Source: Earliella scabrosa
Taxonomy: Eukaryota > Basidiomycota > Agaricomycetes > Polyporales > Polyporaceae
Assembly (NCBI GenBank): GCA_022605405.1
Contig: JABYQQ010000016.1
Location: forward strand, 1-64,000
Length of the DNA stretch: 64,000 bases
Direction of reading: 5' to 3'
The notes below the pieces were generated by a model, which did not search any database, had not been told where the DNA came from, and worked only from the letters and a program-made list of their open reading frames with translations. The position numbers and the translations under genes are program-made. Positions 29,872-62,145 of this stretch are shown piece after piece. The first letter of the stretch is position 1; every line of letters starts with the position of its first letter.

Positions 29872-30579
29872 ATGTCGAATATGCCGGCTCCTCTAGAGCC
29901 AGCGCGAACCCATCCTGCCCATACGCGCCATCCTGGTCCGGTCGATCCAGTTATCGCCCTCCCCCGCAACGCCTCAACCAAGCCCATGACGGTTGGGTAT
30001 ATAGCGCCGGCCCCTACAACGCTGCTATCCCGATTGTCCCTTCGTCTATTGCGGCTCACGACAACTCGGCAAGTCGTCTACATCACCGTTCTCGACGCAA
30101 GTATCACCGTGTCCTCGGCACTCGCACTACCGCTTCCCGCTGCATTGATCCTCAACGTGCGACGCCCCGCGGACACCAGCGCGGCCCACTCCCCTATCCT
30201 TACCTCCGCATTCTACCGAGGGGTCGCGTTGGGGAGCGTGTTCGCGCTCATCATCGCGGCGCTGGCGATCGCGTTCCTTTGGGTCGCGTCTCGTCTCCGG
30301 CTGCCGCAGCTGACGTTGAGCGATCAGCCACGGATGCCGGTCGTGCTGTTTGGAGGGATGGTGGTGTCGGTGGCGGCAGGATGGGTTGCGTCGGCGATGG
30401 GGATGCTGCTCGAATACGAGGCGCTGCGGGCGGCGGGCATGGACTTGGAGTTGCAATCCGATTTGCTTCGCGTCGAGGCCGTGGTGGTGTTCGTCTGTTG
30501 TGCGATGGTCACCGCGGTTCTATGCTTCAGTTGCAAGCGTCCGGCGGGGTTGCGAAACCTCAGGCAGAGTCAGAGCTGA
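29872..30579 (+). CDS. Array membrane protein A (four TM helices)
   Basis: First member of the membrane-protein array; 235 residues, no intron. The reading frame is open upstream, but the first ATG (MSNMPAPLEPARTHP) is at 29872. The N-terminus (residues 1-65) is Pro/Ala/Thr-rich and probably disordered and cytosolic. Predicted membrane segments are about 68-94, 117-140, 155-179 and 200-221, with a short Arg-containing loop after segment 2. It lacks clear versions of the two motifs seen in the central members, so membership rests on size, helix spacing and position. Function unknown; the neighbour at 31245 is the nearest copy. Confidence 0.75.
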   Translation: MSNMPAPLEPARTHPAHTRHPGPVDPVIALPRNASTKPMTVGYIAPAPTTLLSRLSLRLLRLTTTRQVVYITVLDASITVSSALALPLPAALILNVRRPADTSAAHSPILTSAFYRGVALGSVFALIIAALAIAFLWVASRLRLPQLTLSDQPRMPVVLFGGMVVSVAAGWVASAMGMLLEYEALRAAGMDLELQSDLLRVEAVVVFVCCAMVTAVLCFSCKRPAGLRNLRQSQS

Positions 30580-31244
30580 GTACTCTCAGGCAGCTCTGTA
30601 GGCTACCAACGATTTCGACTGGGGCGCTTGTAATGTTGTACGGATATGTCTGTCAGAACTTGTCATCATAGATACTGCATGGAAATGGCAGGAGGAGGAT
30701 CACAAGTATTGCGCACGCCCAGCGCACGCGTCCTGTCCAATCGAGGCGGGCGCTTCCCCATGGCCTACTCTAGAGAACCAACTCTGAACTCAGCCTACTG
30801 CAGAGCTGGTCGCACCTCGCCCATCACCACCCGCCAACTGATCCATCCTCCTCTCCGTCGGCCTTGCTCCATGCATAACCCTCCGTCCTCTCGCCCCTTC
30901 TTCTCGCCTTTCCATCCTCAACATGATCGTCCAGGCTCATTCCCAAAAGCGTCCGACGAGCTTTCCTTCTAGTCACCTCGCGTCCACGGTCATGGGCACT
31001 GTCTCACCCGCTATCACAACACGCGCATTGCGCATGGAGAACGGGAACGGAGAGGATGTTGTCATGGTCCGTCTAACCCTGTTCTACATCTGCCCACCGA
31101 CGTCACGCTCAGTATCACTTTCCATCCTTTCCGCCCAGTCCCAACCCCAACCTTCCGCCAGTCTGTCTCCTTCGCCCGCTCGTAGTCAGCCTTTGACTGG
31201 AATTCTGCTCCTATACGCTCTCGTACATCGCTGGATTGGGTCCG

Positions 31245-31762
31245 ATGCAGCCTGAGGATGTCGCGCTCGTCGTGCAAGGCCGGAGCACTCCAAGTCCTTC
31301 CCCAGTCCCCACCGCGTCGAGCCATGTCCGCACTCATCCATCTCATACCCTCTCCCTGCTATCTTCCATCGCCGTCCATATCGTCTCCGCTATCCTCTTC
31401 GCCATCATCTACGGCGGCATCGCTCTCTTCGGCCTCGGCCTCTTCCTCCTGCAAAAACGAGAGCCCTACCACCGCGTCACCGGGCGCATCGCAACGCCTC
31501 CAGTGGCCATTGGAGGAATCCTCGTCGGCTCCTTCTGCGCGATAGCCTCCCCGTGCTCCTCACCGGCATAATCAGCTTCTTCGTCGGACCTGTCGGATGT
31601 GCTGTGGCGCAGCTCGCTCCGGAGAACCTCAAGATCGGAGACAGCGTCGTGAGCTTGGACTTCAATGCCGTCCATGCGCTGGTCGCGAGCGCGGTGGGGC
31701 TCGCTGCGTGGGCGATCGTATGGGCGATCTCTTGCGTCCATGCACTCGTATGGTTCGTGTAG
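31245..31762 (+). pseudogene. Array membrane protein B, frameshifted copy
   Basis: The frame from ATG 31245 (MQPEDVALVVQGRSTPSPS) encodes helix 1 (SIAVHIVSAILFAIIYGG) and helix 2 (PPVAIGGILVGSFCAIAS). It then stops soon after, while a second frame opening at about 31553 encodes the expected helix 3 (GIISFFVGPVGCAVAQ), the DFNAVHALVASAVG linker equivalent to the family's ALKAG motif, and helix 4, ending at 31762. Going from one frame to the other needs one extra base, and the join falls in the run of C at 31549-31552. It is either a young pseudogene or a consensus error in the assembly. The basic loop between helices 2 and 3 is also missing, so some internal deletion may exist. Confidence 0.6.
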
Positions 31763-31860
31763 AGTCTTCAGGTGGGACAGGAGGCTAGGGAGGACGGGAA
31801 CTGAGTATCCCATATGGCCAATGATCACGGTACGAGTGCTGTCAATATTGCCAGTCGTAT

Positions 31861-32470
31861 GTGACTGATGCCGGCTATCTGCTCCCCAGGATCACTACTC
31901 GTCGAGACGCGTCACGGCAGTGCAAGTGCATCGACGCGCCACGTCTCGATCTTGTGAAGACGAAAGTACAGAAAGCGACTCGAGGGCCTGCGTGGCGTCA
32001 CGGAACGCTATGTCATCTCGCCGAATGGCTGTTGGTGCTACCCTCCTCCCTCGCCTCGTCCTTCTGGCTTGCCCAATCGTTTCGTGTCCTCGCATGGGCC
32101 ATCTCGGTCTTCAATGGGCGCATCACGCGAGGTCCTCGATCGAGTACTCGCTTTCACGCGACCTAACGAACGGTCTTGACCCGCAACTTGATACCGAACT
32201 CCAATCCCATGAGACAACCCCAACCGACATCGGCATGCCGCAGGACATCGTCCGCGAGTCATCGAGATAGGCACAGCTCTCATTTCCTCGGCCCGTTCCA
32301 ATCTGTGGTGGCGACTCCTCACCCTATTTCCACTGAGTTCGTCCTCGCCTGGACGTTCGTCGCCGTTGCATCCGGTTTCGTCACCTTCGCGTCGGTATAC
32401 GTGCTCTCCGCTGAACTCCTCGGCCGCGATATGTGGCGCCACGATCGTGACTGTAGTCATGGCATCGCTG
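31861..32470 (+). pseudogene. Possible decayed array copy C
   Basis: Membrane-helix-like segments appear in three plus-strand frames: around 32030-32100 (WLLVLPSSLASSFWLA), an alternative reading of the same bases (ATLLPRLVLLACPIVS), and around 32340-32415 (AWTFVAVASGFVTFASVYVL). No single frame links them and stops intervene. It lies between copies B and D at the array's usual spacing. This could be a degraded member or chance hydrophobic reading of GC-rich sequence. Confidence 0.3.
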
Positions 32471-32680
32471 TTTACTGTCGCGCGGGGTTGCAAACATCAG
32501 CACAATTGGCTCTACCCCGCTCGAGGCATAACATAACAACCGTTTTTGTCATGGTGTACCCGAGACTGCCTTATACATAGGTCCCACTGCGTCATTCGAA
32601 TCATCGAATACCAGTAGCAAGCAGCACCACCCATCTCCGCCTCGGCCACGCGACACTCTTCTCTCAGTCAATCTCGTGCG

Positions 32681-33544
32681 ATGTCCCACATGGCCGGTCC
32701 ACTCCCTAATGCAGCCGATGTCGCTCCGTGGCAAGCCGCGTCCCCACCTCCACTACCACACGAATCGTACCCAACTCATCCTAGTCAGCGCCACGAATTG
32801 CAGATGCATTCGACCATCACGGAGCCGCCACCTGTCCAGCATCACCCCCTCTCCAGTCCGCTCCCGTCACCTCCCGCCCACGCCGAGCCCTACTCGTCAC
32901 GACGTGCCTCCCGTGCCGGTCCTTCAAGTTCGCGCCCGCGCAAGCTCGTCAAACTCGTCGCCCGGGTGGCGTCCAGCTCGCCCCCCATCCGGATCGCGTT
33001 CTGGACCGTCGCATGCCTCGCGATCCCCTCCCTCGCCGCGCTCTTCCTCGCGCTCCTCGGCGGCCGCCTCGCGCGCCTCGCATCGCGCTACAGCGACATC
33101 GGACTGGGCAAGCTCGCCAGCCTCGCGTTCCTCATGGGTCTCCTCCTCGGCGTCCCCGCCGCCCTCGCTGCAGCTTGTCGCGCGTACTTAACGAGGACGC
33201 GTGTGATCGTGCGTCCCTCGGGTCAGGACGTGAAGCGCGTCCTCTCGAGGCTCCCATTCTCTCCCGACAAGGAGGTGCAGAGCACCGCACACAGGGAGGG
33301 GGAACTGCGGAGGAGGAGCTGGGGACGCACCCTGCTTCTGGGGTACGTCGGGCTCGCGGGCGTCGTCGCGGTCCCGGCGAGCGCGGCTGCGTTCCGGCCG
33401 TCTGGGTTGCGCGGGACGGACGGGCTGGTGGTCGTGTTGGCGGCGTTTGGGGCGGTCGGGATGGTTTGTTGCATGCTGGTAGCTGTTTGGACGTCCTTGA
33501 CTGACGAGAGGAGGGTGAAGGTGCGGGAATTCGTTGGGGTGTGA
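32681..33544 (+). CDS. Array membrane protein D (four TM helices)
   Basis: 287 residues from ATG 32681 (MSHMAGPLPNAADVAP), no intron. Residues 1-100 are very rich in Pro, Ser and His and look disordered. Predicted membrane segments are about 105-127, 144-166, 217-238 and 249-272. The loop between helices 2 and 3 (about 168-215) is long and basic, which by the positive-inside rule places it, and so the N-terminus, in the cytosol. The spacing GLRGTDGLVVVLAAFGAVG between helices 3 and 4 corresponds to the GYxALxALKAG motif of other copies. Function unknown. Confidence 0.8.
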   Translation: MSHMAGPLPNAADVAPWQAASPPPLPHESYPTHPSQRHELQMHSTITEPPPVQHHPLSSPLPSPPAHAEPYSSRRASRAGPSSSRPRKLVKLVARVASSSPPIRIAFWTVACLAIPSLAALFLALLGGRLARLASRYSDIGLGKLASLAFLMGLLLGVPAALAAACRAYLTRTRVIVRPSGQDVKRVLSRLPFSPDKEVQSTAHREGELRRRSWGRTLLLGYVGLAGVVAVPASAAAFRPSGLRGTDGLVVVLAAFGAVGMVCCMLVAVWTSLTDERRVKVREFVGV

Positions 33545-34237
33545 GCTGCGAGGGCCGCGTGATGCTTGTTCGAGCGGTCGAGTGGTGTGGCATGAGAGCA
33601 GGGTATCACGAATGTTACGATCACTAGTCGTAGTAGGAGACTCGGAGTGTTGGCGTTCAATCGATACCTGAGTTCGTCGCCGAATGGGTGGCGTCGGAAC
33701 GAGAGGGAGAGAGGTGTGTGGCGACACCCGTGTCGTGATGTCACAGTTTCTATCGACTCGTACTCGCCCTGTTGGCGGCTACGATAGTAGTAGCCCGCAA
33801 CACGTCCGTAAGCTCGTCTGAGAGCTCGACACCGTGACGAGAGACGGTCACTGACGATACTATCTCGAATATCCTCTTCATTCATAGTTCTAGACGAGCG
33901 ACACTACAAGAGACTGGGCCGCGGTGGCGGTTACTATTGTCAGGTCTAACAAGGCTACTCGACCCCATGGCTACCATGAAGTAGCCATACGCTGACCTAC
34001 TCATGATCCATGGATCTATTGCTAGCGTAACCGTCCAATTGTACGAGTTCCAGTACGATTCGGACGTTGGCTTGTGCAGGGGTTAAGAGGAGCAACGATT
34101 TCGTCCGAATGTTACAACTGAGCAAACAATAGTCCTCCTTCCACAAAACCCCACCTGGCGAGCTACGAATCCGTCACACACCTCCCTCAGTCTCATACGG
34201 CTCCGGCACTCTTTCTACACGTACCACTGGACTAGAC
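33545..34237. other. Spacer between array copies D and E
   Basis: About 690 nt. Only ORFs that run antisense through copy D extend into it. It probably holds the D terminator and E promoter. No RNA gene or repeat was seen. Confidence 0.35.
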
Positions 34238-35491
34238 ATGTGGCGGACATTACACGAGCCTCCGCACACGAACCCGCAGGACCCGGGACATATGCCAGGA
34301 GGCTTTACCGATACCGCTTCAGCCTCGTCCTCGTCACGGTCCCCAAGTCTCGCCACCACATCCCCGACGAGTTCACTGTACACCCCGAATCATGATCGCC
34401 CTTCTTCCGTCTACTCGAACGACACAATCCGCGGACATGTAGGCTCCGGATATAGCACCCGCGACATGTCTGCGTACGGAGTCCACCAAGGGTACTGGCA
34501 AAGGGATGACGGTAGCTCGGGCTTCTCAATCGGAGACGACGAGGACGATGAGGACGACGGGTCGCCCATCCGCGAAGACAGTCCCACGGGCCTGGGAGGA
34601 GTACGGAGGAGAGATCGCTCTCTTGAAATCCAGATAAAACATGTGGGCAACGCTCATACTCCCATCGTGACCGAACCCTCCGATGTGAATACACCCGCGC
34701 AAAGCGAGGCTGGCGAACATTACCCACAGTCGGACATGACTGAGATCCCATTGGGCATCCATGACCAGGGGCCGTCTGGAACGGGCCCCGATCGCAGGGA
34801 TGCTCTTCGGCCCAACCGTGGCACTCCGAGTCCACCTATCGTCGTCGACAATGACATACCATTCGGTACCCGTGACCAGGGGCCGTCTGGAACGGGTCCT
34901 AATCCCAGGGAGGTTCTTCAGACCAACCATCGCACTCCACCTATCGTCGTCGACAATTATTTGACGCACCGAGATCGTACGACGCAATCCTGCCTCCCCA
35001 CAAAGCGTCGCGGCCTCGTGCTCGTGGTCCTCCTCGTGGCCTGGTTCATCTTCCCTCCCTCTCTCAGTCTGCTCCTCCTCGCCGTCGGTTTCTCTCTCAG
35101 CGGCGTATATGCAAGGCATGTCCCCTTCTGGGACTCCGCGCGTGTCGCGCTGCCCACCGCATTCCTGTTCGCATTCATCGCATGTGTGCTGTGGTGCCTG
35201 AGCATCACGCTTCTCACGAGGTGTGGTGGACGGCGTCTTGGAGAAGAAGAAAAGAGGCCGTTCTGGAGAGCGCTGCGGGACACCATGCTGCGCCGAAGGA
35301 GTGCGATGGTCGTGGTGTCCTTGTGCATACTGTCGGCAATTGCGGGCCTTCCAGCAGGATTAGCCATGTTCCGCCGGCAGCCTAGCCTTGAGCCGCTCGA
35401 TGGGTTGGTGATTAACGTCGCGGGTGTGGGTCTCCTGGCGCCCTTTGCGGTCCTGGGCGTGTGCGTGGCGGGGATGGCGCGGAAGGATTGA
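34238..35491 (+). CDS. Array membrane protein E, long N-terminus with internal repeat
   Basis: 417 residues from ATG 34238, no intron; the longest member. The first about 255 residues are Ser/Pro/Asp-rich, include an acidic run at about 100-107 (DDEDDEDD), and contain two tandem copies of a 35-37 residue unit (about 170-206 and 207-241), each with DQGPSGTGP and PPIVVDN. Predicted membrane segments are about 259-289, 303-327, 355-377 and 389-413, with a basic loop (about 328-354) after helix 2. The helix 3-4 linker (QPSLEPLDGLVINVAGVG) fits the family position. The variable N-terminus is probably cytosolic; function unknown. Confidence 0.8.
   Translation: MWRTLHEPPHTNPQDPGHMPGGFTDTASASSSSRSPSLATTSPTSSLYTPNHDRPSSVYSNDTIRGHVGSGYSTRDMSAYGVHQGYWQRDDGSSGFSIGDDEDDEDDGSPIREDSPTGLGGVRRRDRSLEIQIKHVGNAHTPIVTEPSDVNTPAQSEAGEHYPQSDMTEIPLGIHDQGPSGTGPDRRDALRPNRGTPSPPIVVDNDIPFGTRDQGPSGTGPNPREVLQTNHRTPPIVVDNYLTHRDRTTQSCLPTKRRGLVLVVLLVAWFIFPPSLSLLLLAVGFSLSGVYARHVPFWDSARVALPTAFLFAFIACVLWCLSITLLTRCGGRRLGEEEKRPFWRALRDTMLRRRSAMVVVSLCILSAIAGLPAGLAMFRRQPSLEPLDGLVINVAGVGLLAPFAVLGVCVAGMARKD
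34745..34960 (+). repeat. In-frame tandem duplication inside array gene E
   Basis: Two copies, 34745-34855 (111 nt) and 34856-34960 (105 nt), share the run gaccaggggccgtctggaac and a common ending around cctatcgtcgtcgacaat. Lengths are multiples of three, so the duplication keeps the frame. High identity suggests it arose recently. Confidence 0.85.
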
Positions 35492-36368: not shown

Positions 36369-37055
36369 ATGTCGTCCCCAAACCCTGTCGCACACCCAAC
36401 GACGCCTGTCCCCGACGCGCCGTTAGACACCGACAGCACATCGCATACGGTCATCAGCGAAGTCGACCGCCCGAAAGACGTAGAGAAAGCGAATGCCGAC
36501 GTTTCAACAGAGCCCGTACCGGAGCCGGCCTCCGGGTGTACACGGATCGCTTCGCGCTTCATCCACTACGCGAGCCACCCCGTCACACGGCGCGTTATCT
36601 GCGTTGTCCTCCTCTTCGCAGCAAGCGAGCTGTATCCGTTCCTCGGCTCGTCTATCCACCACCGCCCGGGGATATTCGGCCAGGCGAGGGACGTCACCGC
36701 CGCTGCCGCGATCGGTGCCTCCATTGTGGCGGGCCTATACCTCTTGGCCGCCGTGGCTGTCAGGTTCGCAGCGCCGGCGTGCGTGGCCAATCAGCCGCGG
36801 CTTGTCATGCTGGCCGTGGAGACGGCGGTGTGTCTTGTCGTCGGCTGCTTTGTGCCTTCGCTCGGAGTCGCCGTGCGCGTGGGGGAGTTGGACGAAACTC
36901 GGAGCACGGACGGGGAGCACACGTTAGGTGTGGAGGTTCTCGTAGCCAGCGTGATTGGGATGTTTGTCACTATCCTCGTTCCGATAGTACTCCTCCCGTT
37001 GGCTGGGGTTGCGGTCGCGCTGGCAACATCGGAAGGAAAGTCAGCGGATGGGTAG
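36369..37055 (+). CDS. Array membrane protein F (four TM helices)
   Basis: 228 residues from ATG 36369 (MSSPNPVAHPTTPVPDAPLD), no intron. The N-terminal 70 residues are Pro/Thr/acidic and likely disordered. Predicted membrane segments are about 74-96, 109-134, 145-170 and 187-218. Unlike D, E, H and I it has a very short loop between helices 2 and 3. The region after helix 3 (VGELDETRSTDGEHTLGVEV) is longer and acidic. It sits just before the tRNase Z gene on the same strand, 638 nt away. Function unknown. Confidence 0.75.
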   Translation: MSSPNPVAHPTTPVPDAPLDTDSTSHTVISEVDRPKDVEKANADVSTEPVPEPASGCTRIASRFIHYASHPVTRRVICVVLLFAASELYPFLGSSIHHRPGIFGQARDVTAAAAIGASIVAGLYLLAAVAVRFAAPACVANQPRLVMLAVETAVCLVVGCFVPSLGVAVRVGELDETRSTDGEHTLGVEVLVASVIGMFVTILVPIVLLPLAGVAVALATSEGKSADG

Positions 37056-39759: not shown

Positions 39760-40687
39760 ACTCGACTCCCCCGAATGTCAATCCTATTGTGGCGACGAGG
39801 AAGTGAAAGTAAGTCCTGAAGTTCGCTAACCGACGCTTCGCTGCTCATCTGGCCGTTAGAGCAGGATGTACCGTGCTGTAATGTATCGGTTTTGTTTCAT
39901 ATAGATTGTATACTCCGATCAACATCGTGAGTGTAGCTCTGCCACTATTACCGACTCTCAAGATAGAACCGACTTCGCCATACGCAGCTAGCATACCGTG
40001 ACATCCTCCACCGTCTGTCGTGTCCTCCCCTCTTCATTATTTTCTAGAATGTCCGCGCGTTGATTCTTATCCCGCAACTGATCGCTTTGCCTTCACGCCA
40101 TTAGGTCGATCACAGCAAGACTCGCCTATGTACTAGTAGAACTATACACCGCCAACTACTGCCACTGGCATCGCCACGCCAGAACATGTGCACGCGCCCT
40201 ATTATGTCGCACGACATGAGCTCTCACCGCTCTCCCTATATGGTATGTTTGCTTTCCTTGATCGATAGCCCTCGTATTGTTGAAGTTGGGATAGGAACCT
40301 TGGCTTGGGCGCCCAGGTTGTTATCCGAGTCCGGAGTATTGTCTCGAGGTTGTCGTGCACACACAGCACGTATCGAAAGTTGTGTCCCATTTCGGCGCTC
40401 GCGACGGGGCACGATCTTGGCAGATACGCATCCTGACAAGCGTACCTCACCTCAGACTATACCTCGGCAAAATCCACATGTTGGCATAATGCTGTACCCA
40501 TGTTCTCAGATCGGGGCTGTGGCGTCTCGCATATGCGCGCGGTGTCCCCAACGGACAATATTCTGGTGCCTCAACTGCCTGTCCCAGAGTATGGTCCTCC
40601 GTGCATATATAAGACGCGCATTTGCGCTGAATGCAACCCAGGGTCGCTCATCCTTCACCCTCTCACCAGCATCTACTGCACAGCCTC
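39760..40687. other. Spacer between tRNase Z and array copy G
   Basis: About 930 nt. A plus-strand ORF beginning at 40186 runs into the G region in another frame and has no domain; I treat it as chance. The TATA box of copy G is at 40606. Otherwise nothing is seen. Confidence 0.35.
40606..40613 (+). promoter_or_regulatory. Probable TATA box of array gene G
   Basis: TATATAAG lies 75 bp upstream of the start codon at 40688. Its distance and the pyrimidine-rich sequence that follows (cttcaccctctcacc) fit a core promoter. Confidence 0.55.
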
Positions 40688-41299
40688 ATGGCCGACAACG
40701 CACAACTTGTATCTTCGAAGCGTCCCAACCACTCGGAGTTCAAGGCAGGAAGCGGAGGCGATTATGGATTGTCCGAGAAAGAGTCGTCCTCGACCTACTT
40801 AGGCAAGACTTCCCATGAGCTCGCTGCCGACATCGCTGTTGGCATCATCTCGACCGTCGGCTACGGCGCGGGTGGAGTCGCCATCGTCCTGTTCTCCTCG
40901 ACCATCGTCGTTTCAGACGAAACCAAGAAGGCGAACAGGGCTGCAGTTCTGCTATGCGCCATTGGCGGCATCGTCGTCGGCATCTTCGCCGTCCTCGCAA
41001 CGCGCCACACTCGCGGTGACCAACGCAATGGCCCGCTTCGAAAGGACCTCATCCCTTGGAGCGCTCTCGCTCTCCCTGTTGGAGTGGCGATCGCGCCTCA
41101 ATACACCCCATTCGGAGTGATCGGTGCTGTACTGAGGGGCGCCCTGGGTGCTGCTGTAGTCAACACACTGGAGAATGGTGGGGGGCTGTTGGACGATTGG
41201 CGCCATTCCGGTACATCAGGCGTTGTCTGCGAGAAATCAGCGGTGGCGGATCGCGTATGGTGCGTCACTCCTGTCCTGATCTTATTTCGCTCACACTGA
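40688..41299 (+). CDS. Array membrane protein G (divergent, C-terminus uncertain)
   Basis: 203 residues from ATG 40688 (MADNAQLVSSKRPNHSEF), no intron. The N-terminus is short (about 45 residues, Ser/Lys/Gly-rich). Predicted membrane segments are about 46-76, 85-106 and 121-136, with a weak fourth at about 141-159. The end of helix 1 (GYGAGGVAIVLFSS) resembles the family motif loosely. The C-terminal about 40 residues are polar and unlike other members, so the true end may lie in another frame or the copy may be losing its last helix. Confidence 0.65.
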   Translation: MADNAQLVSSKRPNHSEFKAGSGGDYGLSEKESSSTYLGKTSHELAADIAVGIISTVGYGAGGVAIVLFSSTIVVSDETKKANRAAVLLCAIGGIVVGIFAVLATRHTRGDQRNGPLRKDLIPWSALALPVGVAIAPQYTPFGVIGAVLRGALGAAVVNTLENGGGLLDDWRHSGTSGVVCEKSAVADRVWCVTPVLILFRSH

Positions 41300-41695: not shown

Positions 41696-42457
41696 ATGAA
41701 GCAGATGCCGCAGCGGATGCCGATCTCTGCGCACATCAACACATCGAACACAGGTAGAAGCATCCATGGAAAGCCCACAGCAGATTATCTGCTCTCCCCG
41801 ATAGCCCTCCCTGGGGTAGTCACGCTCCCGTGCTACGAGTTTCCCGACGAGGGAAGATTGATGCGCGAAGCGGGGTCGCAGAACCATAAAGAGAGCAGAC
41901 CGCGCTGGCCCCCTGTCTCCTCCCTCATCATCTTCCTCGTCACGCTGCTCGCTACAAACCTCGTCTATTTATGCATCGGACTGTCCATCCTCGCCTCCCG
42001 CCGCTTTGAACCGTACGCCACCGCCCTGAAGTCGAGGCGGAACGCTGTGACCATCAAGACGGCGCTGGTCGGGTTTGGCGTCTTCACCCTCACCTTCACC
42101 TTCCTCTATTTTGCCGTTCTGCTTGCCCTGCGCTGTCGGGATAGGCGTCAGAAAAGTAGGAAAGAAGAGGTGGGGACCGCGTCCCAGGAGCCAAACTCTA
42201 CGAAGGGAGAACTCGGAGGCATGATGACATACGCACGGCCGATGGTGTGGGGTGTGTTGGGCGGATGCTTCATCCCTGCACTTGGGATCGTACTGCGGTC
42301 AGACCCCCACGCGCCACAGCTGCATGGATTTGAAGGCGGGCACGCACTTGCAGCGAGCATGTTGGGGTTCGCAGTCACGATGTGTGGCGGAGCAGTGATC
42401 GGGGTGGCCTGCTTCGTTTTGGCGAGAAGGGATGGACCGCGTCCACAGCGGAGGTGA
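41696..42457 (+). CDS. Array membrane protein H (four TM helices)
   Basis: 253 residues from ATG 41696, no intron. Residues 1-70 are polar. Predicted membrane segments are about 75-101, 121-146, 180-201 and 216-243. The end of helix 1 reads VYLCIGLSIL, matching the family pattern (V/L)-Y-x-x-x-G-x-x-I-L, followed by FEPYATALKSRR. A basic loop (CRDRRQKSRKEE) follows helix 2 and places it in the cytosol by the positive-inside rule. The helix 3-4 linker GFEGGHALAASMLG matches the family G-x-x-A-L position. A good central member; function unknown. Confidence 0.8.
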   Translation: MKQMPQRMPISAHINTSNTGRSIHGKPTADYLLSPIALPGVVTLPCYEFPDEGRLMREAGSQNHKESRPRWPPVSSLIIFLVTLLATNLVYLCIGLSILASRRFEPYATALKSRRNAVTIKTALVGFGVFTLTFTFLYFAVLLALRCRDRRQKSRKEEVGTASQEPNSTKGELGGMMTYARPMVWGVLGGCFIPALGIVLRSDPHAPQLHGFEGGHALAASMLGFAVTMCGGAVIGVACFVLARRDGPRPQRR

Positions 42458-43475: not shown

Positions 43476-44522
43476 ATGAACGCATCCCAGCCCAAGGCCA
43501 CGCTGCTGATGACCCAGCTCAAGAGGACGGACTCGCAAGAGACCCTTCTCCCGCTAGTCGCCAGCGACGCTGAAGGCAAGGACGTCAGCGACGATCGCGA
43601 GATCCACACAGACGAAGAGAAGCCGAGCCGCACCTGCACCGTCTGGCTCCCGAGCTCGTTCCCGCTCCCCTCCTTCATCACCCAGCGTCAGATCGCAGCC
43701 GAGTACGAGCAGCTCGCGGTCGAGTACGCCGCGCGCCACCCCGCAGAAGCCGGCGAGTTCGCCGCGACCTCAACCCCGACTCCCGGGAGACTCGAGGCAG
43801 GCGTCGGACGCTGCCCGTCATGCACACGCTCCAGCCTCTCCCTGACCTCAAACATGGCCTTCTCCTTCCTCGACGCACTCCTCGGCCTCATCTGGTACCT
43901 CCGCATGACCCTCCTCCTCATCCTCGCGAGCACCTTTGCAACGCTCGCGAGCGCCTTCTTCGGCTGGCTCCTCGGCACCTTCGCCATCCTCGGTTTCCTC
44001 GAGCCCTTCACCGTCCTCACCTTCCACGCCGCCGTCACCGCGCTCGGACTGGGCTCGCTCGTGCTCGGGCCCAGCATCGGCGGGCTCTGTGCGCTGAAGC
44101 TGATGTTCCGGAGAGCACGCATGAGCCGCGAGGAGAAGCGCGCGCTGGACGAGGTCGTCAAGGACGAGTACGGCTGGATCAAGAGCGGGCCCGGATCGGG
44201 GTGTCTGGGCGGGAACGAGGAGCCCCAGGAGCTCATGTACGCGCTCCCGGTCTCGCTCGTCGCTGGGGCGTTCGCGCTCGCCGTTGGATTTGCGGTGCGC
44301 CCGAGTCTGCTCGCGGAGGTGAACGCGCTTCCGGAGGAGGCGGTCGAGGCTGGGAAGGAGGTCGTCGCGTTTGGCGTGAAGCATGCGCTCGCGCTGGGGG
44401 TGTGGGGATTCAGTGTGCCGTTTGTGCCTTTCGCGGTCGGTGCGTTCGTCGGCACGCTGTGGAATTGCGCGCCGGCGGAGGGCGCGGAGTGCGTGGCGGA
44501 ATGTTGTTGCTCTGCCCGCTGA
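43476..44522 (+). CDS. Array membrane protein I (four TM helices, long)
   Basis: 348 residues from ATG 43476 (MNASQPKATLLMTQLKR), no intron. The N-terminal 140 residues are polar with several acidic stretches. Predicted membrane segments are about 144-176, 179-210, 253-275 and 303-329. The loop between helices 2 and 3 (FRRARMSREEKRALDEVVKDEYGW) is charged and starts basic. Helix 3 (VAGAFALAVGFAVRPSLLAE) closely matches that of copies J, K and L in pattern. The C-terminus ends in a Cys/Glu-rich tail (ECVAECCCSAR). Codon use is strongly C/G-ending, more so than in its neighbours, which may mean higher expression. Confidence 0.8.
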   Translation: MNASQPKATLLMTQLKRTDSQETLLPLVASDAEGKDVSDDREIHTDEEKPSRTCTVWLPSSFPLPSFITQRQIAAEYEQLAVEYAARHPAEAGEFAATSTPTPGRLEAGVGRCPSCTRSSLSLTSNMAFSFLDALLGLIWYLRMTLLLILASTFATLASAFFGWLLGTFAILGFLEPFTVLTFHAAVTALGLGSLVLGPSIGGLCALKLMFRRARMSREEKRALDEVVKDEYGWIKSGPGSGCLGGNEEPQELMYALPVSLVAGAFALAVGFAVRPSLLAEVNALPEEAVEAGKEVVAFGVKHALALGVWGFSVPFVPFAVGAFVGTLWNCAPAEGAECVAECCCSAR

Positions 44523-45575
44523 TGAGTCGAGCAACACATCAGTGGACTGCGTCTGTATGGAGCGCGTGCCAGGTCCCCGCACTCCAATCCTCCTGTTGCG
44601 TCCTTCTCTATCATGTTCACGCGATGTTTCGTACCGCTGTGCCCACGCTCCCTAGCTGTCTCGTATGGACTTGATCGTGCTGTCTTCGCTGTTGTAAATG
44701 GACTGTCGTAGTATGATTAATGCTGCTGTTGTTGTTAGCTGTGAGCTGTGAATGCATATAAGTTGATGTGAGACGTGCCTGTGTACTCGCCCCATGACTG
44801 GAGCGACGCTAGCAAGCAAGTGCCCACTACCTACAAGGACTTGAGTTAGATCGCGGGCGCGTCGATCACAACCTTGCGCTCACCTTGTGTTTTAGCTGGT
44901 CCATGGCTGTTGTTGAACAGCCAACGAACTCTTCAGACGCACCTGTCGCGGTCAGCGCTCCAGGTCCGGCCCCGGGTGTCTATGAGCCGAACAACATCGC
45001 CCGGCCATGACGATCACGATTTACCAACTTCCATGTCACCGATAGCCAAGAGAGCACAGCACGCGGCAGGAGGGCGCTCGTATGCCTCGGAGCTGTCATT
45101 TGCAGTGGTCGTTGCCATCCTTCCGTATGTCAGTTGTCGTCGCATACTTCTCTGATGCAATCGGGGAAAGGATGGGATATGAGGAGCGTGGTTGCAGTGG
45201 GAAGCTCGCCTTGGACGCCCAGGCCCCAGGGACCTGTTGCTCAGTGATCTGGCAGACATACTGGCGATATGATTGTGCCATTGTGCCGAGGTAGACGAAG
45301 ACACTGCAGCTAAGGTTCCCCATCAGCGCTCAGCCTCCGACGTCCATCGGGTGGCACCGCACAGCGCGCAAAATGCACTCCCGACGTTCTATGCGACTCG
45401 CGATCGCTCCGGGGGTACAAGTCATGCATAATGCAGAGCTAGTATCTAGGCCTTGCGCATGAGTACAAGAGAGCGAGTATGGTCGTCAGAGACTCACCAG
45501 ACACTCGACCGCGACACGATAACTCCCCGAGCATCCGCATTGACTCGGAACGCCGACACCCGAATTTCGAAGGTC
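44523..45575. other. Spacer between array copies I and J
   Basis: About 1.05 kb without a supported gene. Small ORFs at 44874-45155 and 45014-45304 (minus) lack domains. In-frame ATG 45459 upstream of copy J's chosen start lies here and is the alternative start for J. Confidence 0.35.
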
Positions 45576-48736: not shown

Positions 48737-49369
48737 CTACTTCCCAAGACAAACCCACAAGGCAGCCGACCCCGCAAGCCCGACAGGCCCTACGATCGCC
48801 GCCCCGAGCCCTCCTGCCTTCAACGCTCTCAACGCGTCGTAGCCCTCCAGTCCACCATGACTCGGCCGCACGACCAGCCCCGTCGACAGCGCGAACACTC
48901 CCGAGATCATGCCCACCACACCTGCACCTTTCAGTGTCAGCGCCCATCCGAACACCGGATCCCATAGCTCACGACCCGCCTCCGCACGCGTTCTCCGCCA
49001 CACCTGCAATACCAGCACAGTTCCCACCGCCACCATCCCAATCCCAATCCATATCGCGAGGCTGCACAGTGCGCTCCCGGCCGCCGCAACCTTGGAGAAC
49101 GCGTTCGCCACGATGTGCTTGTCGGTTCCCCACGGATCCTGCTTCGCACGGACAAAGATCGAGGGGTAGTGCAGGATGGCGCCGCCGATGACCGTGTAGA
49201 CTATGCTTGCGGCGAGGCTCCACACCAACGAGAGGCCGTAGGAGACGATGACGATGAAAAGGATCCAACTCCATGGGAGAGTTAGCCCAGCTTCCGCGGG
49301 TGGCGAGGCGTCTCGACAGGGTACTCGTTGGAGTGGAGCCCCATTGCCGTCAGAGATTGAGCTGGGCAT
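48737..49369 (-). CDS. Array membrane protein K (four TM helices, core member)
   Basis: 210 residues from ATG 49369 (MPSSISDGNGAPLQRVP). An upstream in-frame ATG at 49510 would add 47 residues; I prefer 49369 because the extension has no counterpart in L. No intron. Predicted membrane segments are about 35-66, 95-122, 146-168 and 184-208. Helix 1 ends VYTVIGGAILHYPS. The loop after helix 2 is basic (VWRRTRAEAGREL). Helix 3 and linker read GMISGVFALSTGLVVRP then GYDALRALKAGGLG. With J and L it defines the family consensus. Confidence 0.85.
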   Translation of the reverse strand: MPSSISDGNGAPLQRVPCRDASPPAEAGLTLPWSWILFIVIVSYGLSLVWSLAASIVYTVIGGAILHYPSIFVRAKQDPWGTDKHIVANAFSKVAAAGSALCSLAIWIGIGMVAVGTVLVLQVWRRTRAEAGRELWDPVFGWALTLKGAGVVGMISGVFALSTGLVVRPSHGGLEGYDALRALKAGGLGAAIVGPVGLAGSAALWVCLGK

Positions 49370-49776
49370 GGTTGTATCGTTCGGTTCGAGTGGGTAAGGC
49401 TCTTGCGTTTGTAGTGGCGGCTTGGACCGGGTGTCTGGTGCGATGGAGGATTTGGAGATGGTGAGTAGAGCGTTGAATCTGCGCGTCTTATCGTGCTCGA
49501 TACTCATCATCTTTGCAGGTACTACAGGCAGATAGGGTGACGCGTCTCTCCGCGCCCTTAGCTGTGTCCATCCTACGGAGCAACGGAACACCTTGCACAA
49601 AGCCGAGAATACGTCAATTCGCCTCCTCCCACGCTGCTTCAAGTTCGAAGTTCGGGGTGCTATCGCTGGACGCTCGAGAGACGTTAGCCCGTCCAGTTCA
49701 GAAGGTTCGCCGATGTGTTATACGAGAACACAGCTAGGGTGTCGTTGTGTGTCCATACTGGTCATACAGCGGGTGA

Positions 49777-50424
49777 TCAACATATCGACAGCACTACTAA
49801 TATCGAGAAAATCAATACCAACAGCCCACCAACGATGACCGCCAAACCAGCCAATCCCACCTTCAGCGCATCCAATGCGCTATATCCCGCAGGGCCGACG
49901 TTCTCTGGCAGCACCAAGATTCCCAGCGCGAGCGCGAGCGCTCCACCTACAACCCCAGCCACCGCCGCTCCTATCCAGAACAACGTCCAGCGGGACTCTC
50001 TCTCCCCGTTCTCCCTGCATCTCCCCCACATCCACACTCCCAACGCCACTAGTAGTACGGTCACCGGACTGGAGATAGCGCTCCCGCATACTGCGGCCTT
50101 CATAAACGGTGGCGTAGGGCTGTAGGTTGCCGCAGACCACGGGTACCTCCTGTACGTGTGGGTGATGGACGGGTAGTGGAGGATGGCCGCGCCGGTACAT
50201 GTATAAACGAAGCTGATGAACGCCGTGAATGTTATCACAGCGCACGCTAGCAGGAGGCCCAACAACGCCCTGAGGCAGACCAGCACCCATTTGTAGAGCT
50301 GATCCTGTTCGTCATTGTCCGACGGCTCTTCAATTGGATCCCTGCGCGTTGACTGGAATGACGGAGCAGTAAGTCTGCCAATCTTTGGAGTGTAGGCACT
50401 GTCACTGAAGCTTGGACTGACCAT
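49777..50424 (-). CDS. Array membrane protein L (four TM helices, core member)
   Basis: 215 residues from ATG 50424 (MVSPSFSDSAYTPKIGR), no intron. Predicted membrane segments are about 53-80, 112-135, 147-173 and 189-214. Helix 1 ends VYTCTGAAILHYPS, followed by ITHTYRRYPWS. Helix 3 and linker read GVVGGALALALGILVLP then GYSALDALKVGLAG. A TTTAAA element about 75 bp upstream on the minus strand (near 50495) may be the TATA box. The close match to K, 407 bp away on the same strand, points to a local tandem duplication. Function unknown. Confidence 0.85.
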   Translation of the reverse strand: MVSPSFSDSAYTPKIGRLTAPSFQSTRRDPIEEPSDNDEQDQLYKWVLVCLRALLGLLLACAVITFTAFISFVYTCTGAAILHYPSITHTYRRYPWSAATYSPTPPFMKAAVCGSAISSPVTVLLVALGVWMWGRCRENGERESRWTLFWIGAAVAGVVGGALALALGILVLPENVGPAGYSALDALKVGLAGLAVIVGGLLVLIFSILVVLSIC

Positions 50425-50834: not shown

Positions 50835-51482
50835 TCAACGAAACATGTACATGTACCACATCCAGAGCAACCCCGCCACGCTCGACACGACCGCTAGCAA
50901 CACCAGCCCTTCGATGAGGATGATCATCCGCGACGAAACGAGGTCCAGAGTGGCCATGAATGTGATGTCTAACATCGTCATCCCTAGGAGTATGATCACC
51001 GGAACTCCCCACTCAACCATCCCTCTGGGCGTGGGCAGCCCTGCGCCGAGGATGTAGGCGACGGATGCCGCCCCCACACAGACGGTGAGTGTGCAGATTG
51101 CCATGAACGCCATCCGTCCGAAGTAGATGGAACCGTATTCGCGGATCGCATCGTATGCGTCTACTGGTGCGAAGTATGCGTAGATTGGGAGGGCGAAGAG
51201 GACCGTGGAGGAGGGCGCAACAACGAAGGTGATGCTGAGCACCACGAACAGACGAAGGGATGCGAAGCCGTGATAACGATAGATGTGGCGTTGCGATTCC
51301 ACCGCACCATCTATCTGAGGCGGGGTGTGTACAAAGAGATTTCCTGGGACCACCTCCATGGTGTCGGCCGCGGATCCATCATGCTCCAGACGAGATTCGC
51401 AAGAAGTGCGCTTACGGAGCCGCCCCACGGGGGACAGCGTTGCGCGTTCTGTCTCTTCGTTGCGTGGAATCGGCTTGGACAT
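50835..51482 (-). CDS. Array membrane protein M (four TM helices)
   Basis: 215 residues from ATG 51482 (MSKPIPRNEETERATLSP), no intron. The N-terminus is charged (RLRKRTSCESRLEHD). Predicted membrane segments are about 76-105, 121-147, 157-179 and 184-212. There is only a short loop between helices 2 and 3 and the helix 3-4 linker is brief (LVSSRM). Motif conservation is weak, so membership rests on size, topology and position between L and N. A TATATAAG box lies 67 bp upstream. Confidence 0.75.
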   Translation of the reverse strand: MSKPIPRNEETERATLSPVGRLRKRTSCESRLEHDGSAADTMEVVPGNLFVHTPPQIDGAVESQRHIYRYHGFASLRLFVVLSITFVVAPSSTVLFALPIYAYFAPVDAYDAIREYGSIYFGRMAFMAICTLTVCVGAASVAYILGAGLPTPRGMVEWGVPVIILLGMTMLDITFMATLDLVSSRMIILIEGLVLLAVVSSVAGLLWMWYMYMFR

Positions 51483-51548
51483 CTGAGGTAGTCAAGATGG
51501 GAGTATGACAGCTGGGGCGCACAACAAGCTCGATCGCTGAGGGAGGGT

Positions 51549-51909: not shown

Positions 51910-52627
51910 TCACATGGTGCGATCCGGAGTCTTGTCGACACGCACCCTCCGCGCGAGCTTGAGAGCTCGGTAAAAGGCGAACGCAAAGACGATGAACACT
52001 ATGCCTCCAGCGAACCCAATTGTGAGTGCATCTGTGGCCGTGACTCCTTTCGGCGAGAGGACGAGGGTACCCACAGCCGGAGCAACGGCGGCGCCAAGGA
52101 CAGCCACATTGCTCGCCGGCTGGTTCGCCTCCATGATGTGCGGTTGAGGGGAGGAAACTTGGTCCGGCTTCAACGTCCACCAAGCCTTGACCGTGAAGGC
52201 GGCGAAGGACATGACTGAGATGACGATCCCGGTGATGACGGAGCCCAACAACGTTGCTCCGAAGCCCGCGGGCCGCTCGCAAGCACATCGTAGCGTAGGG
52301 GAAGGTAGTCCACGCGAGGATGAGCACGATGATTCCGGTGAGGAGGTACATGATGCTGAGTACGGTGGTGGCGATGATGAGCCACAGCGCGAGTGAGACG
52401 ATGTTGAGCGGATCGGGGAGGCAATCACGGAACCCATACACGCGATCGTGGTGGTAGGTGCGAATCTTGGGTGGATCTAGTTTGCGCCCGCGCTCGGTAT
52501 CCTCGGAGAAGACGAGGGTACGATCCGCTAATGCGCTTGTACTGGATCGGGGGGAAGTCATGAGACGCGCGTACTCTTCCTCCGCATCGCGGGAGAGGCG
52601 GTAGGCAGATGTGGGCGTGAGGGTCAT
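51910..52627 (-). pseudogene. Array membrane protein N, frameshifted copy
   Basis: From ATG 52627 (MTLTPTSAYRLSRDAEEEY) the frame encodes a polar N-terminus and helix 1 ending MYLLTGIIVLI then FPYATM, which resembles the EPYATA that follows helix 1 in copy H. It then reads Arg/His-rich sequence unlike a protein of this family. The frame one base further on encodes the expected rest: helix 2 (ATLLGSVITGIVISVMSFAA), helix 3 (NVAVLGAAVAPAVGTLVL) with linker GVTATDALTIGFAG, and helix 4, ending RVDKTPDRTM at 51910. One base must be skipped, at about 52256-52300, where short runs of G and C occur. Either a recent mutation or an assembly error. Confidence 0.6.
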
Positions 52628-53640: not shown

Positions 53641-54402
53641 TCATCCTCGACAACAACAGAAGGCGCAAGGCATCAAGACAACAGCGAACACCACCCCATA
53701 GATGAGCGATCCCATACACCCATCAATCATCGCATTCTTCGCATCCACCCCAGGCAAGCCGTCGAACTCGCCGTACACCGCGATGCCCACCGCGATGACG
53801 AATACGCCCGACACGGCAGCGGCGACCGCGGTAATGAGGATGAATGCCTTCGCGCCGTTCCTACGCGTGTTGAGACATCGGAACAGCCTATTGACAAGTT
53901 GCGCTAGGAGCAGGACGCCGCTGACATACAACGCTTCTCCGATGAACAACGGGTGGACCGTCGGCTCGCGTGGTACACCGAGTCCGACAACGTCCGGAGG
54001 TGGTTTGGCGGATGTGAGGGCAGGAGCGGCCTCGGGTGAAGGGGACGAGTGGGTCGAACCGCGGGATAGGATGTGTTCCCCGAGGATGGGCGCGGTGGAT
54101 GCGACGAGCGTGACGATGAAGAAGACCAGCACGTAGACATAGTAGAACGTGTATCCAGAACGACGATCGGCTTCGTCCTCGGGCCCCAACATGTTCGATA
54201 GGATGCGACGAGGGAGGCTCTTTCGGGTCCGGCCACTTCGCCCGGTCTCTGCATCGCGCTGTGAGGTGAGGGTAACCTCGTCGTCGTCGAATGTAGCGCG
54301 TGGTGAGAATCGGGGGAGTTGCGATGGTTGGTATCGAGTCGCGGCGACGCTCGATGGGTGATAGGAGGAGCTGAGCGTTTGCATCTTGACAGAGGAAGTC
54401 AT
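53641..54402 (-). CDS. Array membrane protein O (four TM helices)
   Basis: 253 residues from ATG 54402 (MTSSVKMQTLSSSYHPSS); the open frame extends further upstream, but the extra sequence is Cys-rich and unlike the family. No intron. Predicted membrane segments are about 84-111, 152-175, 184-210 and 226-252. Helix 1 ends STAPILGEHILSRGS, a weak form of the G-x-x-I-L motif. Helix 3 (AAVAAAVSGVFVIAVGIAVY) fits the consensus seen in J-L. The C-terminus is CCCRG, a Cys cluster that could be palmitoylated. Function unknown. Confidence 0.8.
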   Translation of the reverse strand: MTSSVKMQTLSSSYHPSSVAATRYQPSQLPRFSPRATFDDDEVTLTSQRDAETGRSGRTRKSLPRRILSNMLGPEDEADRRSGYTFYYVYVLVFFIVTLVASTAPILGEHILSRGSTHSSPSPEAAPALTSAKPPPDVVGLGVPREPTVHPLFIGEALYVSGVLLLAQLVNRLFRCLNTRRNGAKAFILITAVAAAVSGVFVIAVGIAVYGEFDGLPGVDAKNAMIDGCMGSLIYGVVFAVVLMPCAFCCCRG

Positions 54403-54897: not shown

Positions 54898-55556
54898 TCA
54901 AACCGGTACCTGCTGCCTACGACAGAACAGTACATAGATGAAAGCGATCACCAAGACGAGCGAAACGGACACCACCACCATGCCCAAGAGACCTGCTTTC
55001 AACGCCTGAGCCGCCGTGAACACATCCGACTCGAGTAGGTGCGGCCAGACAGCGACGCCGGTAATTGGAACAAACGCTCCCGCGACGACAGTCCCAACAA
55101 CTTCTAGTGACCAGAACACGACCGTCCTGGAAGCCCCGCACTTCCCGGCATACCACGCCGCGACACCGGCGAGGAGGAACGCGAAGGCATCGAGTATTGC
55201 GCACGCGCCTAGGAGGGCCGGTGCGAGTACAACCATACTTCCTGAATCAGTGCGCCGTCCCCCAGGATCCGAGCCCCGGCAGACATGAATGTCACGGCAA
55301 GCCCGAACGTTACGAGCATGCTGCATGGAACAACGAGTGTCATGTAGAAGATGACAAGGGACGACGGGCCACCGTAGGCGGACCTGCGCGCGTCGTGAGC
55401 TCCGTGGTGGACCTCGTCGGGAGGAGAGTGCTGCGGGGGATGGTCGACTGGGAGTGAGCTTGCAAAGTCATCGACCTCGAGCTGCGTCTCCCCAGAGAGA
55501 TGCTCGTGGAACGCGGACTTCTCGCGGTATCGGGACGCGTCGGGAGAAGGGTTCAT
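54898..55556 (-). pseudogene. Array membrane protein P, frameshifted copy
   Basis: From ATG 55556 (MNPSPDASRYREKSAFHEH) the frame gives a polar N-terminus and helix 1 (SLVIFYMTLVVPCSMLVTF) ending SAGARILGDG, then soon stops. Another frame continues with helix 2 (VLAPALLGACAILDAFAFLL), helix 3 (VVGTVVAGAFVPITGVAVWP), the family linker FTAAQALKAGLLG and helix 4, ending RRQQVPV at 54898. The change of frame needs one extra base and fits the run of five C at 55259-55263 (five G in the coding strand). Apart from this the copy looks well preserved, so either a very recent inactivation or a homopolymer error. Confidence 0.65.
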
Positions 55557-56376: not shown

Positions 56377-57135
56377 ATGCTCACCAGTCTCCCGAACGAA
56401 GAACATACCCCACTCTGTCCCAAGCAGCAGGGCTCTCCTGCGAGGATCTCTCTCGACTTGCAGTCGCGGTGCTCTTCTCCGCCGCCGTCCTACACCTCTA
56501 TTCCTCCTCGCCACTCGCGAGCCAAAGTGCGACTCTCGCGCCCGACGCCAGCCCATGCTCAGACAAGGGAGCTACACGAGCTTGAAGCGCAACGGGCCTC
56601 TGCGCCCGGCTCCCCCGCGCAAGCTACCAGCGTCGAGCCAGTGGCGAGCTCAATCATGTCCAAGCTAAACGATCTCCTGATCGTCTTGCTCGTTCTTCCC
56701 ATCCCAATCTGCGCCTCCGCAGTCTACAGCTTTCTCACAAGCGCGCTTGCGCGTTTCCTCTTCCTCCGAGGCACCGAACCCTTCGCCTCCATTTCCGCCA
56801 CCGCCCTCATCCCACCCACCTTCCTCGGTGCAATCATCATAACGACCGCATTCTGTCCGCTCTACGTCCTATATGAGCCCTTCCGTACCGTCATGCTCAA
56901 GTGGGACCTGACAGACGACACGCGTCGTCAATGGGCCATCCGCATCGGGGCTATATCTGCCTGGGTGTTCCTGCCCTTCACTGTCGGAGTCGCAGTGTGC
57001 CCGACGTGGGTACCGGAGGGCTTTGCGGTGGTGCATGCGTTGCACCTGACGCTCTGGGGCATGTTCCCCATCGCCGTCGTTATGGCCGTCCTTGGTCTTC
57101 CTGGCTGCATATTCATCTCCCATGGGGATTGGTAG
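56377..57135 (+). CDS. Array membrane protein Q (four TM helices)
   Basis: 252 residues from ATG 56377 (MLTSLPNEEHTPLCPKQQG), no intron. Residues 1-95 are Ser/Pro/Arg-rich and probably disordered. Predicted membrane segments are about 98-128, 142-166, 187-208 and 219-247. The linker PEGFAVVHALHLTLWG between helices 3 and 4 fits the family's G-x-x-x-x-x-A-L position, and helix 3 reads FLPFTVGVAVCPTW. It is the only clear plus-strand copy right of the carrier gene. Confidence 0.8.
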   Translation: MLTSLPNEEHTPLCPKQQGSPARISLDLQSRCSSPPPSYTSIPPRHSRAKVRLSRPTPAHAQTRELHELEAQRASAPGSPAQATSVEPVASSIMSKLNDLLIVLLVLPIPICASAVYSFLTSALARFLFLRGTEPFASISATALIPPTFLGAIIITTAFCPLYVLYEPFRTVMLKWDLTDDTRRQWAIRIGAISAWVFLPFTVGVAVCPTWVPEGFAVVHALHLTLWGMFPIAVVMAVLGLPGCIFISHGDW

Positions 57136-57348
57136 ACCGTCCTGTGATGTACACACTACTTTACCTCCAGAACTGTCGCCTTCGATGTCTCGGATAGATA
57201 GGTTCCGTACGGGCCCGACCGTGGTGAGCGTACAGAGGATACTTACACGGTCGACAACACACTATGCTTGATACAACAAAACTCCGTACACATCCAGACA
57301 TAGCGTACATAGTCCCTGATCATCCATGGCAGTATTCATCCCCGTCAT

Positions 57349-61111: not shown

Positions 61112-61240
61112 ATCCACATCGGATCATTCTACTGTATTGCATAGCATGTGTGGTCGCTCGTCGACATCATAGCTACCGGGTCTGACAATAAGTAGTCTAC
61201 GTAGTCTCGTTACGTACTAAGTCATCATGTCCGAACAATG

Positions 61241-62145
61241 CTACACGACCGTAACATCTCCTCTCCTGTCCACGCGTCCTCGAGGTGCCACCTCCCCCAC
61301 TGTCGCAGCGCGGTGACCATCACGAAGCACTCGCCGCGAAAACCATACGACTGCACGGCGCGGCACATAGAGAACGGCCCAGCCCACCAGTGTCGTGATC
61401 ATCCCATTCTTCGCGCTCATGGATCCCGGCGCAGTGCCCTTCACCATTCGAGCGCCGAGTGCACCAGCTGCGGCAGAGCACCCTATGGTGAACGTTAGGC
61501 AGACGATGCTGATCTCACACTTCTCCCGGAAAGATAGCCTGGGCGGGGAAGTTGCCCCGGTTTCGGTGGTGTTGTATCTCTCTTCAGAACGATTACAGAG
61601 GGATAAGAGAATGCAGACCGCGCAGACGACCATGGCATGCACTACGGCACCACCAAGCGCGCCGACGCGCATAGCTGCGACAACGTCTACAGCGAAAGCG
61701 GGATCGTGCGGACGCGCCGCACGAAGGATGGCGCAGCCGATGAGTGTGTAGAGCGACTTCTGGAGGACCTGCGTGGCCCCGAGCAACCAGAGGACACACG
61801 TTACGGTCACAGCGGCGGACTGAGCATGCACGAAGACCTTCCCCAGGCTGTGGCGATGTCTAGTGCGGGAGGACGGAAGGTCATCTACAAGCGTGACGCC
61901 CGATAAGAGTGAAGTTGTGGTGTGGACGCGCTTGAGGACGAAGTCGTCCAGGACGTCAAAGAGCTTGCTTGGATCCGAAGAGATTGCTGATACCGTCGCC
62001 TTCACGAATGCGCGGTCATAACTGGTGGCGACAGCTGAAAGGATTTCCCAGTCGGTTAATTACATTAGGCACAACTCAAACCTGCAATGCAGGTAGAATA
62101 CGCACCATTACCGGCGCGTGGTGGCTGAGGGATCGGACCAGCCAT
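61241..62145 (-). CDS. Array membrane protein S (four TM helices, one intron)
   Basis: Exons 62145-62106 and 62034-61241 on the minus strand join in phase 1 (GTGCGT donor, CTTTCAG acceptor) to 277 residues starting MAGPIPQPPRAGNAVATSYD. The second exon has no usable ATG before the first helix, so the intron is required. Predicted membrane segments are about 85-117, 134-160, 187-209 and 222-240. Helix 1 ends LYTLIGCAILRAAR, matching VYTVIGGAILHYPS of copy K. The linker GSMSAKNGMITTLVGW replaces the usual ALKAG region. It is the last recognisable member and the only one with an intron. Confidence 0.8.

Follow-up and report, generated by a model that had tools for sequence, protein, structure and literature searches.

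Two clusters of divergent four-helix membrane-protein genes form an apparently lineage-restricted family in the wood-rotting polypore Earliella scabrosa

Lineage-limited, fast-diverging tandem arrays of membrane-protein genes are a known kind of locus in fungi. In Saccharomyces cerevisiae, for example, the DUP240/COS genes constitute a lineage-limited tandem family of membrane proteins with turnover in copy number and relics of lost copies. Here, an array of this kind, whose family itself appears to be new, is described in the wood-rotting polypore Earliella scabrosa. The stretch of DNA analyzed, called the window hereafter, comprises the first 64,000 nucleotides of contig JABYQQ010000016.1 (C16:1-64000) of a genome of 51.7 Mb in 48 contigs. 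For this species, strain CIRM-BRFM 1817 is given in a table of PMC8955403, and the assembly may derive from that strain. The array spans 29.9-62.1 kb of the window and contains 18 loci (Table 1), and two further copies, Q1 and Q2, are found outside the window on C16. The genes form an old tandem family that has undergone duplication, divergence, and loss of copies; Q1 and Q2 are located ~220 kb away from the array. Judged from the sequences, the copies apparently represent an unnamed, lineage-restricted family that evolves by birth and death.

Like the DUP240/COS genes, the copies in E. scabrosa are arranged in tandem, are apparently limited to one lineage, and have suffered losses. However, DUP240 proteins have two helices each, whereas the proteins of the array have four. 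Pfam contains models for DUP as well as for the wtf genes discussed below. Neither the DUP model nor the WTF model was among the 23 families that Pfam listed at E-values up to 10 for 13 aligned members of the array family, and each of these 23 families matched one member only. Since the filters of HMMER drop most matches above an E-value of approximately 0.1, a very distant kinship to the wtf or DUP families may exist.

According to two papers, the wtf genes of fission yeast (Schizosaccharomyces) encode multi-helix membrane proteins with a cytosolic N-terminal tail and occur as lineage-limited sets of divergent and broken copies; most of them consist of five or six exons, and the drivers among them use two start sites to produce a toxin and an antidote (PMC10721834, PMC6526906). 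A PY motif is conserved in the N-terminal tail, and Spk-1 of Neurospora also has a PY motif (PMC10721834, PMC6526906). The copies in the array resemble the wtf genes in their multi-helix plan, their predicted cytosolic tails, their clustering, divergence, and partial breakage, and their apparent restriction to one lineage. They differ from them in that only 3 of 16 tails contain the PY motif, and perhaps also in exon structure: the core of each unbroken copy is encoded in one open frame, to which short 5' exons may be added, whilst most wtf genes are divided over five or six exons.

Another multi-helix family of basidiomycetes with an unclear molecular function is DUF6533, which includes the Snowball protein SNB1 of Agaricomycetes. 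SNB1 is described as having seven helices and an outer N-terminus, in contrast to the four helices and the predicted inner N-terminus of the array proteins, and neither DUF6533 nor DUF6534 was among the Pfam matches listed for the copies. A plan of four helices with both tails inside, as predicted for the array, is shared by claudin/SUR7 proteins, tetraspanins, and MARVEL proteins. However, the helix 3-4 loop of tetraspanins is large and rich in cysteines, whereas that of the array proteins measures 8-26 residues without any cysteine in the 13 rows of the core alignment. In claudin/SUR7 proteins, the first outer loop carries a conserved cysteine pair and a Trp motif, whilst just 3 cysteines were counted among the 347 first-loop residues in these rows. 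No claudin/SUR7-type family was among the 23 Pfam families mentioned above, and MARVEL was the sole tetraspan family listed, once, with an E-value of 9.7.

Open reading frames (ORFs) with at least three hydrophobic segments are concentrated in the array. They constitute 16 of the 62 ORFs within 29.8-62.2 kb vs. 6 of the 484 ORFs in the remainder of C16:1-304000 (p 5e-12 by Fisher's test), when ATG-started ORFs of at least 100 amino acids, including chance ORFs in both denominators, are counted; two of the six are the copies of the second cluster. The layout proposed in the initial annotation, i.e., 14 open frames (A-K, M, O, and P), three frameshifted copies (X, L, and N), and one remnant at 32.2 kb, was recovered. 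Its description of the former as 14 intact genes applies to the open frames, with the reservations that helix 1 of P is not preceded by an in-frame ATG and that E has three clear hydrophobic segments rather than four.

A hidden Markov model (HMM) built from H, I, J, M, and F found N, D, G, and L in the window and Q1 and Q2 outside, and a second round, with an HMM of nine sequences, brought in X (E 4e-4), O (E 5e-4), and P (E 7e-4). For each copy, the best-domain score against a leave-one-out HMM was compared, in a single run, with the scores of 300 sequences shuffled within segments of 10 residues, by which the hydropathy profile is kept. The real score was reached by 0/300 shuffles for D, F, G, H, I, J, M, N, O, X, Q1, and Q2, and by 1/300 for P, while the numbers were 17/300 for A, 30/300 for E, 39/300 for C, 192/300 for B, and 223/300 for K. 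The frameshifted L was joined to the family by its 73.6% DNA identity to Q2 over 1,043 columns, and the remnant at 32.2 kb was left out of this test. The proposal that all copies belong to a single family with the four-helix plan in common thus has sequence support for 12 of the 18 loci in the window (11 by the shuffle test, plus L); membership is possible for A, C, and E, and B and K have nothing but the plan in common with the others. The profile E-value of A was 0.095 in the second round and 1.5 in the third, for which the chance level was at approximately E 0.1 (0.11 for a chance ORF and 0.13 for reversed J), and B weakly matches C (E 0.008). Comparison of A, B, C, E, and K singly by hhalign (P 0.0012 for A) was undecisive, because a reversed control scored equally well (P 0.0009). 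A four-helix ORF at 116 kb was considered as an extra copy and rejected, as 179/300 shuffles reach its score.

Divergence within the family is large. Core identities are 12-34%, with the exception of Q2 vs. P0007 (61%), and blastn at E 1e-3 gave zero matches between copies in the window, which bears out the earlier impression of an old or fast-evolving expansion. The tree is star-like with long end branches and mostly unresolved; Q1 groups weakly with J (80/41), and Q2 strongly with P0007, a variant of L (100/100). L and Q2, the single usable pair of paralogs, show purifying selection, although L is now broken, the ratio of non-synonymous to synonymous substitution rates (dN/dS) being 0.22 in the 5' piece (117 codons, synonymous rate (dS) 0.51) and 0.39 in the 3' piece (119 codons, dS 0.59). 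Q2 is open over the entire conserved stretch; L differs from it by 7 bases in length inside this stretch, and its frame changes. An intron as the reason for the frame change is ruled out for L vs. Q2, since the 7-base difference lies inside conserved coding DNA. P0007, encoded on an anonymous contig of 655 bases, is open across the site of the frameshift in L, and its last residues, past helix 4, are in a frame different from that of L. L is, therefore, frameshifted in the present genome and open at the same place in another source. As for the public gene models, those for J (C8Q76DRAFT_140840) and L (C8Q76DRAFT_747517) deviate from the open frames at both the start and the end, and the start of the latter seems to be in the wrong frame.

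Anonymous contigs contain variants of four copies, which diverge unevenly. M is 97.0% identical to P0003 over 299 residues, with 3 differences in the 46 residues before the start near 54402 and 6 in the 253 residues after it, and D is 97.8% identical to P0004 over 228 residues. L is 85% identical to P0007 over 113 residues, and J shows 71% identity over 127 residues to a variant that is itself 126 residues long and may have been cut short, either because of its contig or in gene prediction. The nr protein C8Q76DRAFT_140840 is 98.9% identical to J over 179 residues. When the whole genome was searched with 10 single-sequence queries, matches with E-values of at most 0.001 were found on C16 only, a search in which distant copies could be missed. 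A match to Q2 on C19 (C19:532447-532686; 37% identity over 80 residues, E 0.0017) contains three internal stops and is possibly an old relic, and query H matched weakly at C18:973,843 (E 0.013).

The core of Q1 was modeled as a bundle of four long helices (mean predicted local distance difference test score (pLDDT) 85.9, predicted template modeling score (pTM) 0.74). Both tails of the bundle are predicted to be cytosolic, as is the basic loop that connects helices 2 and 3, while the loop that connects helices 3 and 4 would be short, acidic, and on the outer side. When the loop borders were drawn manually on the Q1 model, Lys and Arg amount to 20.7 per 100 residues in the helix 2-3 loop vs. 4.2 in the helix 3-4 loop, the latter containing 15.0 Asp and Glu per 100 residues; this charge pattern fits a cytosolic position of both tails and of the helix 2-3 loop and agrees with the basic loop after helix 2 that had been noted before. 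The aligned cores have in common the motifs S..Y...G..IL and G.F..A.G..V.P, with which helices 1 and 3, respectively, end, and the motifs A..G.A and AL..G..G.AV, with which helices 2 and 4, respectively, start. Three glycines (G76, G133, and G158 in the numbering of the Q1 core), found where helix 2 starts, where helix 3 ends, and where helix 4 starts, do not vary among the 13 cores, of which Q2 and P0007 are close relatives. Comparison of the two core halves by hhalign (11 of the 13 rows, L and N dropped) gave a probability of 9.6% and a P-value of 0.0034 over 22 columns; that the core arose by duplication of a two-helix hairpin, which looks plausible on inspection, is no more than hinted at. 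The N-terminal tails had been described as variable and rich in Ser and Pro, and, consistently, the combined share of Ser, Pro, and Thr is 26-39% in the 16 tails counted, which are those of the 14 ORFs in the window and of Q1 and Q2. Three of these tails (F, O, and Q1) contain a Leu/Pro-Pro-X-Tyr motif vs. 0.64 expected by shuffling (P 0.025), the motif, after the fact, and the tail borders having been picked by the analyst.

At the available sensitivity, the copies match no named family, in line with the initial annotation. No copy reaches the curated cut-off of any Pfam model; the best of the weak matches were those of B to Bax1-I (E 0.0043) and of F to 7tm_1 (E 0.0098), at about half of their cut-offs. 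The best E-value in a sequence search of PDB was 0.25, and Foldseek found no match with an E-value of at most 0.001 in PDB or BFVD. Three protein-database searches yielded eight proteins, i.e., P0001 and P0006, which are the window's own, the named E. scabrosa models P0002 and P0008, and the anonymous P0003, P0004, P0005, and P0007. All relatives found thus derive from E. scabrosa itself or from anonymous contigs, as variants of 71-98% identity. This word-based search reaches only relatives that have several exact five-residue words in common, and two of the runs scored the best candidates only; since it reaches close relatives only, the absence from other species is suggested rather than proven. 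In the same search, a profile of eight window copies retrieved a named public protein for J only, and one of Q2 and G the named model for L only. Among open-license papers, a literature search found none on this family.

What the copies do can be proposed only tentatively. They may be partly redundant membrane organizers or adaptors, composed of bundles that assemble with themselves and with each other and of tails that dock cytosolic partners; this is the possibility we favor, with less than even confidence. The invariant glycines would permit tight packing of helices, by which the cores could assemble with themselves and one another in the plasma membrane or an inner membrane, and the Ser/Pro-rich tail of each copy would offer a distinct cytosolic docking site. 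If the copies are partly redundant in this way, single ones could break or diverge while the bundle persists. Common ancestry, the bundle model, the loop charges, the invariant glycines, and the purifying selection in L/Q2 are in favor of such adaptors, as are the frameshift in an L that is open elsewhere and the star-like tree with its long ends. Several points weigh against them. The model of J is weaker than that of Q1 (pLDDT 75.9, pTM 0.55), the sole pair available for dN/dS includes L, which is now broken, the variants compared are known only from anonymous contigs, in part short ones, and the invariant glycines may serve packing within a single bundle only.

Alternatively, the copies could be membrane proteins that vary between strains and serve to tell a foreign mycelium from the fungus's own, or that affect cells after fusion or in competition, with divergence driven by balancing or conflict selection, an explanation that we consider rather doubtful. 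Self/non-self recognition, stress, or antagonism had been suggested in the initial annotation. Clustered, highly divergent, and partly broken copies fit such a role, and the uneven divergence of the variants, from 97.0 and 97.8% identity in M and D to 85% (113 residues) in L and 71% (127 residues) in J, is compatible with it, but these variants may be paralogs or stem from another species, and the short J variant may be truncated. Moreover, selection in L/Q2 is purifying and not positive, and the domains that are usual in fungal incompatibility genes were not seen, as no Pfam match exceeds its cut-off. A mating-type locus was also considered and rejected: STE3 and Peptidase_M3, which mark such loci, were, among the matches listed, found on C20 and C22 and on C3 and C9, respectively, and not on C16. 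It is unlikely that the family is largely dispensable and weakly constrained, with old duplicates that drift and decay without any special driver of diversity. Such a family would explain the low identities of old duplicates and the breakage of 4 of the 18 loci without conflict. However, D, F, G, H, I, J, M, and O retain open frames with at least four hydrophobic segments despite the loss of similarity detectable by blastn, and L/Q2 show purifying selection.

We regard it as still a little less probable that the proteins are small channels, transporters, or lipid-handling proteins, with the bundle surrounding a pore and the copies varying in substrate or regulation. Improbable, too, is a locus of allelic conflict, i.e., an independent basidiomycete counterpart of wtf in which a new four-helix scaffold underlies membrane killers encoded by single genes, or proteins for recognition, that turn over from strain to strain. 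The least probable explanation, to which we give very little credence, is that the copies are single-gene killer meiotic drivers like those of the wtf family, which destroy spores without the gene, with toxin and antidote forms that differ in the cytosolic N-terminal tail. The multi-helix plan, the variable cytosolic tail, the clustered, lineage-limited copies with broken members, and the Leu/Pro-Pro-X-Tyr motif in F, O, and Q1 are reminiscent of such drivers. However, the motif is present in just 3 of the 16 tails (0.64 expected by shuffling, P 0.025), the WTF model is not among the Pfam families listed, and the unbroken cores are encoded in single frames, in possible contrast to most wtf genes with their five or six exons.

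Whatever its function, the family extends the protein space of wood-decay fungi by an unnamed membrane scaffold whose fold is confidently predicted and whose motifs are defined; its public annotation seems thin. The two clusters, the broken L with its open sister Q2, and the unevenly diverging variants make it a testable case for discriminating conflict loci from drifting duplicates. Should the copies be killers or recognition genes, they would represent a new scaffold for such a role in a mushroom-forming fungus; no such case is known to us.

Table 1. Loci of the array and of the second cluster. Positions refer to the window, except where C16 is indicated.
Locus	Position	Strand	Description
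A	29872..30579	+	Four-helix ORF, 235 amino acids, 4 segments; possible member
X	31245..31759	+	Frameshifted, helices 1-2 in one frame and 3-4 in another; 3' part 0/300 shuffles; member
Decayed remnant	32209..32580	+	Stretches that resemble helices 1 and 2, in two frames; profile E 0.59 and 0.9
B	32681..33544	+	Four-helix ORF, 287 amino acids; plan alike only
C	34238..35491	+	Four-helix ORF, 417 amino acids, long tail; possible member
D	36369..37055	+	Member, 228 amino acids
E	40631..41299	+	ORF, 222 amino acids, 3 clear hydrophobic segments; possible member
F	41696..42457	+	Member, 253 amino acids; LPCY in tail
G	43476..44522	+	Member, 348 amino acids
H	45459..46346	+	Member, 295 amino acids
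I	48737..49510	-	Member, 257 amino acids
J	49777..50424	-	Member, 215 amino acids; public model C8Q76DRAFT_140840 (P0002) spans residues 24-202
K	50835..51482	-	Four-helix ORF, 215 amino acids; plan alike only
L	51910..52627	-	Frameshifted; sister of open-framed Q2
M	53641..54402	-	Member; ORF extends to 54702, start near 54402 weakly favored
N	54898..55390	-	Frameshifted, helix 1 in different frame; upper end approximate; in-frame part 0/300 shuffles; member
O	56377..57135	+	Member, 252 amino acids; PPSY in tail
P	61241..62059	-	Divergent member; frame spans four helix regions, no in-frame ATG before helix 1
Q1	C16:279,994-280,734		Second cluster, ~220 kb downstream of the array
Q2	C16:281,430-282,182		Second cluster, ~220 kb downstream of the array

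Within the array, the part of C that encodes the tail contains a direct repeat of ~112 bases with 80% identity (window 34741-34957). An ORF for a mitochondrial carrier (PF00153; window 47710-48477) is located where the copies switch from the plus strand (A-H) to the minus strand (I-N), and an F-box gene (PF12937; window 59150-61111), which has a relative with 66% identical DNA at C16:125,417-127,312, also lies inside the array. The left flank contains ORFs for a MutL C-terminal domain, a phosphatidylserine decarboxylase, and a C2 domain (window 841-7687). An inverted repeat with arms of ~130 bases that are 82% identical is located at window 10391-10948. At 2-6 kb beyond the second cluster, ORFs for an indoleamine 2,3-dioxygenase (L036:109-1299) and an HNH_2 endonuclease-like protein (L036:3335-4015) are found. 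Elsewhere in the genome, a row of several matches to STE3 pheromone receptors at C22:147978-165317 is perhaps the B mating-type region.
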